Positions 59,331 through 64,000 of a DNA stretch of 64,000 bases are shown piece by piece. The stretch is from Sulfitobacter sp. SK012 (GTDB taxonomy: Bacteria > Pseudomonadota > Alphaproteobacteria > Rhodobacterales > Rhodobacteraceae). How positions within the stretch are numbered: the stretch's first letter is position 1; each line of letters starts with the position of its first letter. The stretch is from positions 3,286,001-3,350,000 of the forward strand of contig NZ_CP025804.1 of the NCBI RefSeq assembly GCF_003352085.1, read 5' to 3'. A program made the translations under genes and the position numbers. A model generated the notes under the pieces. The model had not been told where the DNA came from. It did not search any database and saw nothing but the letters and a program-made list of their open reading frames with translations.

Positions 59331-61277
59331 ATGGCCCAGATTTCTCTCACCCTTCCCGATGGCAACGCGCGCAGCTATGAGGCTGGCATTTCTGCTGGCG
59401 AAGTTGCTGCCGATATCTCAACTTCACTTGGGAAAAAGGCTATTTCTGCCACCGTAAACGGTGCGCATGTCGATCTAGCTTGGCCGATTGGCGCAGATGC
59501 CGACATCGCGATCCACACCATGGCAGACGAAGTTCAAGCCAATGAGTTGGTGCGTCATGACCTTGCGCATATTATGGCCCGCGCCGTGCAAGAAATCTGG
59601 CCCAACACCAAAGTCACCATCGGCCCTGTGATCAAAGACGGCTGGTACTACGATTTTGATCGGGCAGAATCTTTCACTCCCGAGGATCTTGGCACCATCG
59701 AAAAGAAGATGAAGGAGATCATCAATAAACGTGATCTCGTTCGTACCGAAGTTTGGGACCGTCCCCGCGCGATCAAGCATTACGAAGATCTGGGCGAACC
59801 CTACAAGGTTGAGCTGATTGAGAGCATTCCGGGCGACGAGCCGCTGCGCATGTATTGGCATGGCGACTGGCAAGATTTGTGCCGTGGCCCGCATTTGCAA
59901 CATACTGGCCAAGTGCCGGGCGACGCGTTCAAACTCATGTCGATCGCCGGGGCCTACTGGCGCGGCGACAGCGACCGGGCCATGCTGCAGCGCATCTATG
60001 GCGTCGCCTTCACCGGTAAGGAAAAACTTCGCGCGCATCTGAACATGCTGGAGGAAGCCGCCAAACGCGACCACCGCAAGCTCGGCCGCGAGATGGACTT
60101 GTTCCACATGCAAGAAGAGGCCCCCGGCCAGATATTTTGGCATCCAAACGGTTGGAGTATCTATACCCAGCTGCAGGATTTCATGCGCCGCAAACAGCGC
60201 GCAGGCGGCTATGTCGAGGTGAACACCCCGCAGGTCGTGGACCGCAAACTATGGGAAGCATCAGGCCACTGGGAAAAGTACCAGGAGCACATGTTTATCG
60301 TCGAAGTCGACGAAGAGCACGCCCGTGAAAAGGCTGTAAATGCACTGAAACCGATGAACTGCCCGTGCCACGTACAGATTTTCAATCAAGGTATGAAATC
60401 TTATCGTGACCTGCCGCTGCGCATGGCCGAATTTGGGTCGTGCAACCGGTATGAGCCGTCGGGTGCCCTGCACGGCATCATGCGGGTGCGCGGTTTTACC
60501 CAAGACGATGGGCACATTTTTTGTACTGAGGATCAGATCGAAGAAGAAACCGCGACTTACATTGAGTTCCTGTCGGGCATCTACAAAGACCTCGGCTTTG
60601 AGAATTTCAAAGTAAAGTTCTCTGATCGCCCGGACATGCGTTCAGGATCAGACGAAGTATGGGACAAGGCTGAAACAGCCCTGCTGAGCGCCACCCGCAA
60701 AGCCGGGATTGAGCCCGAGATGAACCCTGGTGAAGGTGCCTTTTATGGCCCCAAGTTGGAGTTTGTGTTGACCGATGCGATCGGTCGCGACTGGCAATGC
60801 GGCACCCACCAGGTGGATTTCGTGCTGCCAGAACGGCTGGACGCGACCTATGTCGGTCAAGACGGTGGCAAGCACCGGCCTGTGATGCTGCACCGCGCAA
60901 CTTTGGGCTCCTTTGAGCGTTTCATCGGCATCTTGATCGAAGAGCATGCCGGTAAATTGCCGTTCTGGCTGGCGCCGCGGCAAGTTGTTGTGGCCTCTAT
61001 CACTTCGGATGCTGACGCTTATGTCGCTGAGGTGGTGGCCACCTTGCAAGCCGCTGGCGTGCGTGTCGAAGCCGATATCCGCAACGAAAAGATCAACTAT
61101 AAGGTCCGTGAACATTCGGTTGGCAAAGTGCCCATGATCCTAGCGGTTGGCGGGCGCGAAGTTGAAGAGCGTACTGTGTCTGTGCGTCGTCTTGGGGAAA
61201 AGCAAACCTCCGTGCAGCCCCTAAGCGCTGTAACAGAAGCGCTTCGTGTCGAAGCGACACCGCCCGATCTTCTGTAA
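59331..61277 (+). CDS. thrS: Threonyl-tRNA synthetase
   Basis: A 648-residue class II synthetase. The N-terminal TGS domain ([19 protein letters not shown]) and editing region ([20 protein letters not shown]) precede the catalytic core: [44 protein letters not shown] and [16 protein letters not shown]. The C-terminal anticodon-binding domain ends [14 protein letters not shown]. The start at 59331 gives the usual N-terminus. A long hairpin follows about 40 bases after the stop. Confidence 0.98.
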
Positions 61278-61317
61278 CATTTCGCGAGGTGCGCGCGATT
61301 TTCGCGCATATTGTTTC

Positions 61318-61364
61318 AAAAATGGCCCCACTTGCCTATGTGATCGCGGGTGGGGTGCCATTTT
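61318..61364 (+). terminator. Hairpin after thrS, probable terminator
   Basis: AAAATGG-CCCCAC (61319-61331) pairs with GTGGGG-TG-CCATTTT (61350-61364), giving a 13-bp stem with a two-base bulge. The 3' arm ends in TTTT. It separates thrS from the bufferin operon. Confidence 0.65.
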
Positions 61365-61479
61365 GCTCACAAATTTCTAACAGGTATGTGACACACCCGC
61401 TCGTGAATGGTATTGATTTCCGCACTGGTCTACCTTGAGGCCATCGCAATTGAAGTCTCTGGATTTGAAGGGAAACACT

Positions 61480-61785
61480 ATGTCCAACTCGATGAAAACA
61501 CTCGCAATTGCAGGGGCCGTTGCCGCTGCGTTGACGGCACAGACAACCACAACCGCCCAAGCTGCGGCAAAAGAAAAATGCTACGGTATTTCATTGGCTG
61601 GTGCCAATGATTGCGCCGCGGGCCCCGGCACAACCTGCGCCGGTACATCGGTGACAGATTATCAGGGCAACGCTTGGACACTCGTGGATGCAGGCACATG
61701 CGCCGACATCGATTTGCCCGCAATGGCAGACGGCACAGCACGTGAAGGCGCACTTGAAGCACTTGAGCGCGATCTTCCTGCATAA
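61480..61785 (+). CDS. bufA1: Bufferin-type RiPP precursor (DUF2282, BufA1-like)
   Basis: A 101-residue precursor with a Sec-type signal (about 1-30, [16 protein letters not shown]) and a mature part with four Cys: [25 protein letters not shown] and DAGTCADID (C34, C45, C53, C74). This is the DUF2282 family, the bufferin precursors, in which a DUF692/MNIO enzyme is known to convert certain Cys into thiooxazole rings so the exported peptide can bind copper. AAGGGAA precedes the ATG at 61480. The next three genes encode the expected maturation and membrane partners. A 10-bp stem-loop follows before bufB. Confidence 0.9.
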
Positions 61786-61792
61786 ATCATTT

Positions 61793-61822
61793 GGAGTGCG
61801 GGTGGCTCGCTGCCCGCACTCC
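61793..61822 (+). terminator. Stem-loop between bufA1 and bufB
   Basis: GGAGTGCGGG / CCCGCACTCC, a perfect 10-bp stem with a 10-base loop, followed by TCTTTG. It lies 8 bases after the bufA1 stop and 32 before bufB. It probably cuts or stabilises the transcript so that the precursor is made in excess over its maturation enzymes. Confidence 0.72.
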
Positions 61823-61853
61823 TCTTTGAACGTAAGCACCAAAAGGCCCGAAT

Positions 61854-62717
61854 ATGCGCGACAAATTCCCGCAAGTTGGCAGCCTGCCCGATGCCCCCGG
61901 GGTGGGTTATAAGCCCCAACACTTTCAAGATATTATCGATGCGCCCGGCCCCGTAGAATGGGTCGAAGTCCATGCCGAAAACTACATGGGTGATGGTGGA
62001 CGCCCCCTTGCGCAGCTTCGCGCACTGTCTGAACGCTTTGCTCTGTCGATCCACGGCGTTGGCCTGTCGATCGGTGGCGAAGGCCCGCTGGATACAGATC
62101 ATCTTGCCCGGCTAAAGCACCTAAATGACTGGGCGCAACCCGCTGCTTTTTCAGAGCATTTGGCATGGTCGACCCACGGCGCGGAGTTCCTAAATGATCT
62201 TTTGCCCCTGCACTACACGCCTAAAACTCTAGGGCGCGTCGCTGATCACATTGCCCAAGTCCAAGACACATTGGGGCGGCAGATGCTGCTGGAAAACCCC
62301 TCAAGCTATCTCGCCTTCGCCGAGTCAACGTTGTCTGAAACCGATTTCTTAGCTGAGCTGACCCAGAAAACCTCCTGTGGTCTTTTGCTGGATGTGAACA
62401 ATGTCTTCATTTCATCCACAAATCTGGGTCTCAGCCCGCAAGCCTATATCGATGCCTTCCCGCTCGACGCTGTCGGAGAGATCCATGTCGGTGGTCACGA
62501 CGAAGATGCCGACGATAATGGTGCCCTGCTGCTGATCGACAGCCATAATATGCCGGTCGTCGATCCTGTTTGGTCACTTTTGGCGTATACATTGGCGAAA
62601 ACCGGCCCCAAGCCGGTCCTGGTAGAATGGGACAATGACGTCCCTGATTGGTCAACTCTGCGCACTGAAACGGAGCGCGCTGCCGAAACCCTCAAGACCC
62701 TTGTTCTCGCAGCATGA
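61854..62717 (+). CDS. bufB: MNIO family maturation enzyme (DUF692), BufB-like
   Basis: A 287-residue TIM-barrel-type multinuclear non-heme iron oxidase: [67 protein letters not shown] and [10 protein letters not shown] carry the His, Asp, Glu and Asn that bind iron. In bufferin systems this enzyme modifies Cys of the precursor peptide. It lies downstream of the DUF2282 gene and overlaps the next gene by four bases (ATGA). Confidence 0.93.
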
Positions 62718-63469
62718 CGGTCAGCCAGGCCCATTTTCGCACTGCTCTGTTGGATGCAAATCAACCCGTTCCGGCGGGCCTGATTAACCCTGATGGCGCC
62801 CCTGCAGGGCGGCGTTACGATGTTTACCGCAACAACGTAACCGTCTCCCTGATAGAGGCACTTCGGACCGCCTTTCCCCTGATACTCAAGCTGCTGGGCG
62901 GCCAGAACTTTGACAATCTCGCGCCGCTTTTTGTGCGGGCACACCCACCCCAGTCACCCTTAATGATGTTTTATGGTACTGAGTTTCCTGAATTCCTCGA
63001 AGGGTTTAAACCTTTGGCGCATATCGGATATCTTGGTGATGTTGCCCGTTTGGATCTGGCATTACGCGCCTCTTATCACGCGGCCGATGCCAATGCGTTT
63101 GACGCAAGCCTGCTTCAGGGCAACCCCGAAGACGTTCTAAAATTGCACCTGAAACTGGCACCCGCCACTCGAGTTTTACGCTCACCTTGGCCGCTCTATG
63201 ACATCTGGCGTTTCAATACGATTTCAGGCGCGCCAAAGCCCCAAGCTGTGGCACAAGACGTTCTTGTAACCCGGCCAAAATTCGACCCCACTCCCATTTT
63301 GCTGCCCCCAGGTGCCGCAGATTGGCTTGATCATTTGGCATCAGGGCAGGATTTTGGTGGCGCGCACGACTCTACTGTGCAGACATGGCCAGAATTTGAT
63401 CTTGGTGCTGCTCTAACTGTCGCTCTCGAGGGCCAAGCCCTAATGTTACGTCCTTGGAAGGAAAAATAA
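62714..63469 (+). CDS. bufC: DUF2063 domain maturation partner, BufC-like
   Basis: A 251-residue protein with the DUF2063 N-terminal part: [54 protein letters not shown], then [21 protein letters not shown]. Old annotations call it a putative DNA-binding domain. In MNIO systems it acts instead as the substrate-recognition partner of the DUF692 enzyme. Four-base overlap with bufB and one-base overlap with the next gene indicate tight coupling. Confidence 0.92.
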
Positions 63470-64000
63470 TGACTGCACTGATGACCCTCTACCGTGCAAT
63501 TGCGGACCGTCTTGATCGAAGCGATTGGCTCCTGCCAACCTTAGCGCGGTTAATCTTTGCGGGCGTGTTGCTGATGTATTTTTGGGTCTCTGGCTTGACA
63601 AAATTGGGCGATGGCATTGGTGGTATATTCACCCCATCAACAGGTGCCTACGCTCAGATCCTCCCCCGACTTCTAGAGAGCGTCGGTTATGATACGGACC
63701 AGCTTCCGGGTTTTTATACCGTGTTTGTCTTGCTGGGCACTTGGGCCGAATTCATCTTGCCTGCCCTCATCGTTTTGGGCCTGTTCACACGGCTTGCTGC
63801 GTTGGGGATGATAGGCTTCGTTACGTTGCAGTCGCTGACGGATCTTTATGGCCACGGCAGCTTGGGCGATCCCAAAGTGTTTGGCGCTTGGTTTGATCGC
63901 TTTCCAGATTCAATCATCATGGACCAGCGGGCGCTCTGGGTGTTCTTGCTGCTTGTCTTGGTAATGAAAGGCGCAGGCCCGCTTTCCTTTGACAATGCTC
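63469..64000 (+). CDS. bufD: DoxX family membrane protein, BufD-like (cut by window end)
   Basis: The first 177 codons are present and the stop lies beyond the window. The protein has four to five hydrophobic helices typical of DoxX (LARLIFAGVLLMYFWVSGLT, FYTVFVLLGTWAEFILPALI, LGLFTRLAALGMIGFVTLQS, LWVFLLLVLVMKGAGP). DoxX proteins accompany bufferin genes and may serve redox or metal handling in the membrane. The ATG overlaps the bufC stop by one base. Confidence 0.88.
   Translation, partial: MTALMTLYRAIADRLDRSDWLLPTLARLIFAGVLLMYFWVSGLTKLGDGIGGIFTPSTGAYAQILPRLLESVGYDTDQLPGFYTVFVLLGTWAEFILPALIVLGLFTRLAALGMIGFVTLQSLTDLYGHGSLGDPKVFGAWFDRFPDSIIMDQRALWVFLLLVLVMKGAGPLSFDNA

Follow-up and report, generated by a model that had tools for sequence, protein, structure and literature searches.

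Bufferins were reportedly first described in a PNAS paper. Among the peptides made by MNIOs, they are described as constituting the largest families; an MNIO and its partner make thiooxazoles, and the peptide is exported and binds copper (PMC12452194). In that account, DUF2282 is equated with Buf1, and the core of the gene cluster consists of precursor, MNIO, DUF2063 and DoxX; the central cysteines of Buf1 carry the modification, the outer two are joined in a disulfide, and those Buf1 bufferins that have been characterised bind copper and aid growth when copper is in excess (PMC12452194). The SigF regulon of Caulobacter, which includes a DUF2282 operon, is reported to be induced by copper, and inactivation of sigF to severely impair growth with copper (PMC8224329). 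SigF/NrsF is the sole specific Buf1 control system that we met in the literature. DUF692 RiPP clusters have also been reported in Sulfitobacter, with transcription of the gene in marine biofilms (PMC11278168), in Phaeobacter (PMC11595833) and in Paracoccus (PMC8273931); the portions of these three accounts that were available contain no bufferin reading.

We analysed such an operon in Sulfitobacter sp. SK012, at the end of a 64,000-nucleotide stretch of DNA, hereafter the window (Table 1). The initial annotation had described a complete-looking operon in which a DUF2282 precursor is followed by a DUF692 MNIO, a DUF2063 partner and a DoxX protein. Profile searches bore out this order and placed all four above their Pfam cut-offs; the DoxX score, computed on the in-window part, is only slightly above its threshold. 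The overlaps proposed among the last three genes agree with the coordinates, with four bases between bufB and bufC (62714-62717) and one between bufC and doxX (63469). As to completeness, doxX is intact in the genome, where it encodes 182 aa plus a stop (L002 4470-5018), whereas the window itself cuts it 17 bases before its end. Because the scores of bufA, bufB and bufC are far above curated cut-offs and the genes follow one another on one strand, the arrangement is not a product of chance. DUF2282, MNIO and DUF2063 each gave one match in the whole genome (E <= 0.001).

Table 1. Features of the SK012 bufferin locus (window coordinates).
Feature	Position	Strand	Description
thrS	59331-61277		Upstream of bufA; thrS model 654.4 bits
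Terminator-like hairpin 3' of thrS	61289-61309	+	7-pair stem followed by ATTGTTTC; consensus scan
Double-dyad element, proposed operator	61378-61410	+	TAAC-N6-GTGA-CA-CAC-N6-GTGA-N-T-N-G; 33 bases, 0 mismatches
Weak -35-like TGGTAT	61408-61413	+	Overlaps right end of element; 17 bases before -10
Possible -10 TACCTT (TAnnnT type)	61431-61436	+	Putative; read from the letters
bufA	61480-61785	+	Buf1 precursor, 101 aa; DUF2282 80.4 bits (Pfam cut-off 22.4)
bufB	61854-62717	+	MNIO (DUF692) maturase, 287 aa; PF05114 MbnB_TglH_ChrH 335.8 bits (cut-off 25)
bufC	62714-63469	+	DUF2063 partner, 251 aa; PF09836 84.8 bits (cut-off 27.2)
doxX	63469-64000 (in window)	+	DoxX membrane protein; PF07681 29.0 bits (cut-off 23.6)

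A consensus scan called four terminator-like sites in 61200-61900, compared with 0.8 expected, and the hairpin 3' of thrS would separate bufA as its own transcription unit. Downstream of doxX lies a convergent ArsC/Spx-like gene that scores under its models' cut-offs. At four other loci (L116, L185, L197 and L272), a membrane-protein-like frame of 119-122 aa occupies the minus strand downstream of doxX, and in L116 and L197 this frame adjoins an arsC-like gene; in SK012, doxX meets the arsC-like gene directly.

BufB scored 361.2 bits against the NCBIfam model NF050167, 'MNIO family bufferin maturase' (MNIO_BufB; cut-off 310), and remained below the other MNIO models, namely HvfB (229 bits, cut-off 360), ApyH (96.7, cut-off 400), MbnB (52.4, cut-off 325) and ChrH (40.6, cut-off 600). 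Since BufB exceeds the NF050167 cut-off, this is by sequence a Buf1 bufferin operon, and with the Buf1 (DUF2282) core present the bufferin-type reading of the initial annotation was upheld; by the domain features tested, the operon is a Buf1 member. BufC and DoxX both missed the corresponding Hvf equivalogs (HvfC, 34 bits, cut-off 142; HvfX, 26.8 bits, cut-off 80). In an alignment of 15 BufB sequences from Rhodobacterales, Rhizobiales and Caulobacterales, H67, H102, E147, D180, H211, H215, D229, H231 and E258 were invariant; His, Asp and Glu residues of this type are the usual iron binders of the MNIO family. Alignments A1-A3 comprised 23, 25 and 14 loci, hand-picked from 27. Relatives of BufB with solved structures include 3bww and 8hci (both DUF692; we take the latter to be TglH) and MbnB entries such as 7dz9. 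No relative of BufC was found among solved structures with either the single sequence or a 24-sequence profile, and no hit of BufA was better than an E of 0.27.

The four cysteines of BufA had been correctly recognised and numbered (C34, C45, C53 and C74), and they are invariant in 46/46 family precursors and in 26/26 aligned precursors from a wider set. By eye, residues 1 to about 28 resemble a signal peptide, with a charged start, an Ala-rich hydrophobic run and an AQA motif. Modification had been expected on all four cysteines; published Buf1 work points to the central pair, and because the outer cysteines of Buf1 pair as a disulfide, the expected targets here are C45 and C53, not all four. 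We propose that BufA would be synthesised with a Sec-type signal peptide and that BufB, an iron enzyme, would act with BufC in the cytoplasm to convert C45 and C53 to thiooxazoles. After export, a C34-C74 disulfide would close and the mature peptide would bind surplus copper in the periplasm; DoxX belongs to the core of the operon. The chemistry, export and copper binding suggested here are carried over from published Buf1 work, and copper protection in Sulfitobacter sp. SK012 would follow by the same analogy. It is also conceivable that the chief task of this bufferin is another metal or redox stress and not copper, given that the Caulobacter SigF regulon responds to chromate and cadmium too (PMC3511200, PMC8224329) and that the control element described below differs from SigF promoters; yet copper is what the characterised Buf1 bufferins bind, and they favour growth when it is in excess (PMC12452194), and we regard a chief role other than copper as unlikely.

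All 58 genus genomes sampled contain an MNIO gene, and 140 of 198 genomes taken from across the family have DUF2282. The closest named locus, among the best 80 of 483 named loci, was that of Sulfitobacter sp. CW3, with a BufB identity of 82%. The attraction that the initial annotation saw in a "roseobacter version" was overstated, as the operon is common in the family and DUF692 clusters had been reported previously. thrS lies upstream in all 30 genus loci with this operon type, SK012 included, and a thrS match was found in the fetched stretch of 101/112 family loci with a BufB identity of at least 62%, compared with 0/23 below 62%. This synteny across genus and family suggests that the operon is probably old and was inherited in place. 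One sampled genus genome, G005 (84% complete), has only a distant MNIO, with 41% identity to BufB, and its 3.8-kb locus (L005) contains no bufA match beside that gene.

What is new here is the control region, where the loci compared carry a strongly conserved element, absent from the initial annotation, that appears unlike the one described for such operons. No description of such an element was found in titles and abstract openings among the listed matches of the bufferin, MNIO, DUF2282 and NrsF literature. When the thrS-bufA gaps of 46 loci were aligned, 45 contained a gap-free block located 59 to 102 bases upstream of the start codon; in SK012, the element sits 69 bp before bufA. The pattern of this block, TnAC-N6-GTGA-nn-CAC-N6-GTGA-n-T-n-G, has 16 fixed bases and consists of two dyads, TnAC-N6-GTGA and nCAC-N6-GTGA, 15 bases apart. 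At no more than one mismatch, the 58 genus genomes gave 58 matches; 57 precede the MNIO match by 466-589 nt, and one lies elsewhere, in a genome (G030) that has the usual copy as well. The element precedes the operon in 57/58 of these genomes at this threshold, the sole genome without it being G005, and a reversed control pattern gave no match in any of the 58. The SK012 genome has no second site at up to three mismatches to a stricter genus pattern, and within the window the element is the only match at up to three mismatches, with 0.29 expected.

Among the 80 named loci, which are the best 80 of 483 and overlap with our other sample sets, the element was found at no more than one mismatch in 73, at two in 4 (77 at two or fewer) and at three or four in 3. 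Across the family, it was present at no more than two mismatches in 89 of the 112 loci with a BufB identity of at least 62%, a line that was set post hoc. The other 24 family loci, one of which (G186) yielded no BufB match, gave 0/24 at up to four mismatches, their best matches having five or more, about the level of shuffles that preserve base composition only. The 16-base pattern was drawn after 46 loci (30 genus, 16 family) had been seen; among 119 later family loci, 95 have a BufB identity of at least 62%, of which 74 match at no more than two mismatches and 80 at no more than four. In the 23 of the 112 loci that lack the element at this two-mismatch threshold, 7 have three or four mismatches, 4 carry NrsF and 12 are unexplained, including one (G113) with a sigma relative in its locus; 19 of the 23 are without NrsF above the cut-off. 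Some of the misses resemble spacing variants by eye and were not scored as matches.

In most loci, thrS is the gene immediately upstream, and TnAC and CGTGA recall loose -35 and -10 parts, so that the element might belong to thrS, or be a variant ECF promoter, and not be an operator of bufA. However, it is located beyond the terminator-like hairpin of thrS, and of the 11 loci (BufB identity at least 62%) with no thrS match in the fetched stretch, the element is retained at no more than two mismatches in 4 and at three or four in 3, and is absent from 4. Furthermore, TnAC and CGTGA are separated by 20 nt, and conservation of the middle GTGAnnCAC almost equals that of the ends, which is unlike a promoter spacer. 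We consider both of these origins quite improbable. Instead, we infer that a putative regulator binds the element and controls the bufferin operon almost alone; within the genus, this protein would have hardly any further sites of the same form. It could be an activator or a repressor, and copper may be the signal to which the proposed operator responds. Boxes of the CueR, CsoR, CopR, Pho, FNR and LysR types were compared with the element informally, by eye. In two Boseongicola loci without a thrS match (L185 and L207), a 170-aa frame with a signal-like start lies on the minus strand, about 1.1 to 0.65 kb before bufB, divergent to bufA and facing the same element.

Transcription would start from a promoter adjoining the element at 61378-61410, to which the putative regulator would bind. 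The consensus scan gave no sigma-70 call for the bufA strand; a TA-containing block at the distance of the possible -10 from the element recurs in the alignments. The putative regulator would be unlinked to the operon and would act at a promoter of the housekeeping type, with the possible -10 at a conserved distance. A direct ECF promoter, tried as a candidate for the element itself, was rejected on account of the spacing and the conserved spacer. Neither a sigma nor an NrsF relative lies beside the operon in 128 of 129 loci, a count that excludes 16 SigF-type loci and five plasmid loci (L210-L212, L214 and L215); the exception is L072. By eye, no recurrent regulator gene near bufA was seen in the open reading frame lists of 15 loci and of 10 thrS-less or aberrant loci, two of which (L095 and L207) are identical in sequence. 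A regulator-like HTH protein of 241 aa is encoded in L121 on the plus strand, about 2.1 to 1.3 kb before bufB, between thrS and bufA; it is the sole such case in these lists and a possible lead to the regulator.

We then compared the element with SigF/NrsF control. NrsF had no match in the SK012 genome, the 13-kb SK012 locus contains neither a sigma nor an NrsF relative, and the SigF-type string GTAAC-N15..18-CG[AT] was absent within 200 nt of bufA from all 30 genus loci, SK012 included. By contrast, the second family set, with BufB identities below 62%, is of the SigF type. In the fetched stretches of its first 13 loci, a sigma relative was found in 10 and an NrsF relative in 7, and the string, which resembles the Caulobacter SigF site GTAACC-N16-CGAA (PMC3511200), occurred within 200 nt of bufA in 9/13 (shuffles 0.2). 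Scoring covered 136 of the 140 DUF2282 family genomes, G154 having no upstream sequence and G013 (which has the element), G158 and G251 being left out. In these, the element (at no more than two mismatches) and NrsF above the cut-off were found together at 1 locus, the element only at 88, NrsF only at 21 and neither at 26, a near-exclusion with a Fisher p of 9e-11 when shared ancestry is ignored; G185 was counted as NrsF-negative because its match is below the cut-off and has two stops. Put differently, NrsF was present in the genomes of 1/89 element loci versus 21/47 element-less loci. The same comparison with the SigF-type string gave 2 loci with both, 87 with the element only, 18 with the string only and 29 with neither (Fisher p 4e-8, again ignoring shared ancestry). 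Five thrS-matched loci belong to genomes with NrsF, and four of them (G067, G191, G231 and G248) have a SigF-type string instead of the element, while the fifth (G211) has kept the element (p 0.002, shared ancestry ignored); in G067 and G248, the sigma and NrsF relatives are inside the same fetched locus.

Of the 80 named loci, 77 of which carry the element, 14 have the SigF-type string no more than 250 nt from bufA (shuffles 2.4) and 8 have it within 200 nt. In 12 of the 14, the string precedes the element, several times at the thrS end; in the other 2, it is no more than 30 nt from the start codon. Avoidance of NrsF is thus clear, and that of the promoter string less strict. A single dyad, [TA]CAC-N6-GTG[AT], was present up to 200 nt upstream of bufA in 10/13 SigF-type loci (shuffles 0.1), 28/30 genus loci and 26/63 other family loci; the stricter TCAC-N6/7-GTGA was found over the same range in 5/13, 0/30 and 8/63, respectively. 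The occurrence of the single dyad in both operon types suggests that part of the element may be common to them.

Our overall explanation, a Buf1 bufferin for copper under element-based and not SigF/NrsF control, is in our judgement likely to be correct, and the same joint judgement covers its further point that most thrS-linked operons of the family would be transcribed independently of SigF/NrsF, unlike that of Caulobacter. A further-reaching scenario is offered only tentatively, as one that we think somewhat less likely to be true than false: in roseobacters, an undescribed metal-sensing transcription factor acting on the double dyad, with the bufferin operon as its one clear target, would have replaced SigF/NrsF, the modules having been swapped repeatedly at the thrS-linked locus. 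An element with a near-private target would provide a handle on how roseobacters switch bufferins and a bait for the regulator.

That the operon instead yields an antimicrobial, bacteriocin-like RiPP, as genome mining in Sulfitobacter and Paracoccus supposes in its antiSMASH labels and discussion (PMC11278168, PMC8273931), a view also favoured by the transcription of DUF692 genes in marine biofilms (PMC11278168) and by a Pseudomonas DUF2282-DUF692-DUF2063-DoxX cluster (Pep1) reported as the cluster correlating most strongly with Streptomyces scabies suppression (PMC8719888), is very improbable, because BufB exceeds the bufferin equivalog cut-off, the four-gene core matches that of bufferins (PMC12452194), no dedicated exporter or immunity gene is found among the four genes, and conservation behind thrS in genus and family is unlike that of a strain-specific weapon.

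Bufferin-type genes also occur on plasmids. MNIO matches in 355 plasmid records included 73 from Escherichia and 18 from Klebsiella, with 60 and 17, respectively, for DUF2282. One E. coli stretch (L213) carries the complete four-gene set; its annotation shows a TetR-type gene immediately before it and lists no sigma or NrsF. Bufferin operons of the sigma/NrsF type were found on Paracoccus, rhizobial and Asticcacaulis plasmids (L126, L127, L210, L211, L212 and L214); that of L211 adjoins plastocyanin-like and cytochrome c genes. Among seven plasmid loci, the single dyad TCAC-N6-GTG[AT] lies just upstream of bufA in L128, L212 and L215, directly before a SigF-type site in the latter two, and was not seen there in L126, L127, L210 and L214. 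Tandem DUF2282 precursor genes at one locus were observed in L211 (4341-4936) and also in G064 and G156.

Among the known systems, the captophorins fontiphorin and oxazolin share with SK012 an MNIO and a DUF2063-type partner, and are reported as 5-thiooxazole peptides tied to copper, with a mass change of -4 Da per thiooxazole given for fontiphorin; their precursors contain repeated EGKCG motifs (PMC13097082), whereas SK012 BufA is a DUF2282 protein with four spaced cysteines. The DUF692 RiPP clusters reported in Sulfitobacter (PMC11278168) probably represent the operon family of SK012, as judged by genus group. They are discussed as possible antimicrobials, and the available part of that account gives no control element (PMC11278168); our reading suggests that they are more likely metal-buffering. 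The GIG operon of Cupriavidus metallidurans and Legionella comprises the same four families and has a metal-responsive promoter (PMC5413113). Its hosts are Beta- and Gammaproteobacteria, and the Legionella copy is reported on an integrative conjugative element, whereas the SK012 operon is located on the main contig, syntenic behind thrS. The Caulobacter operon CC3254-CC3257 has the four families in the same order as SK012, DUF2282-DUF692-DUF2063-DoxX, and adjoins sigF/nrsF, with SigF control reported through GTAACC-N16-CGAA (PMC3511200); in SK012, the double-dyad element is found instead.
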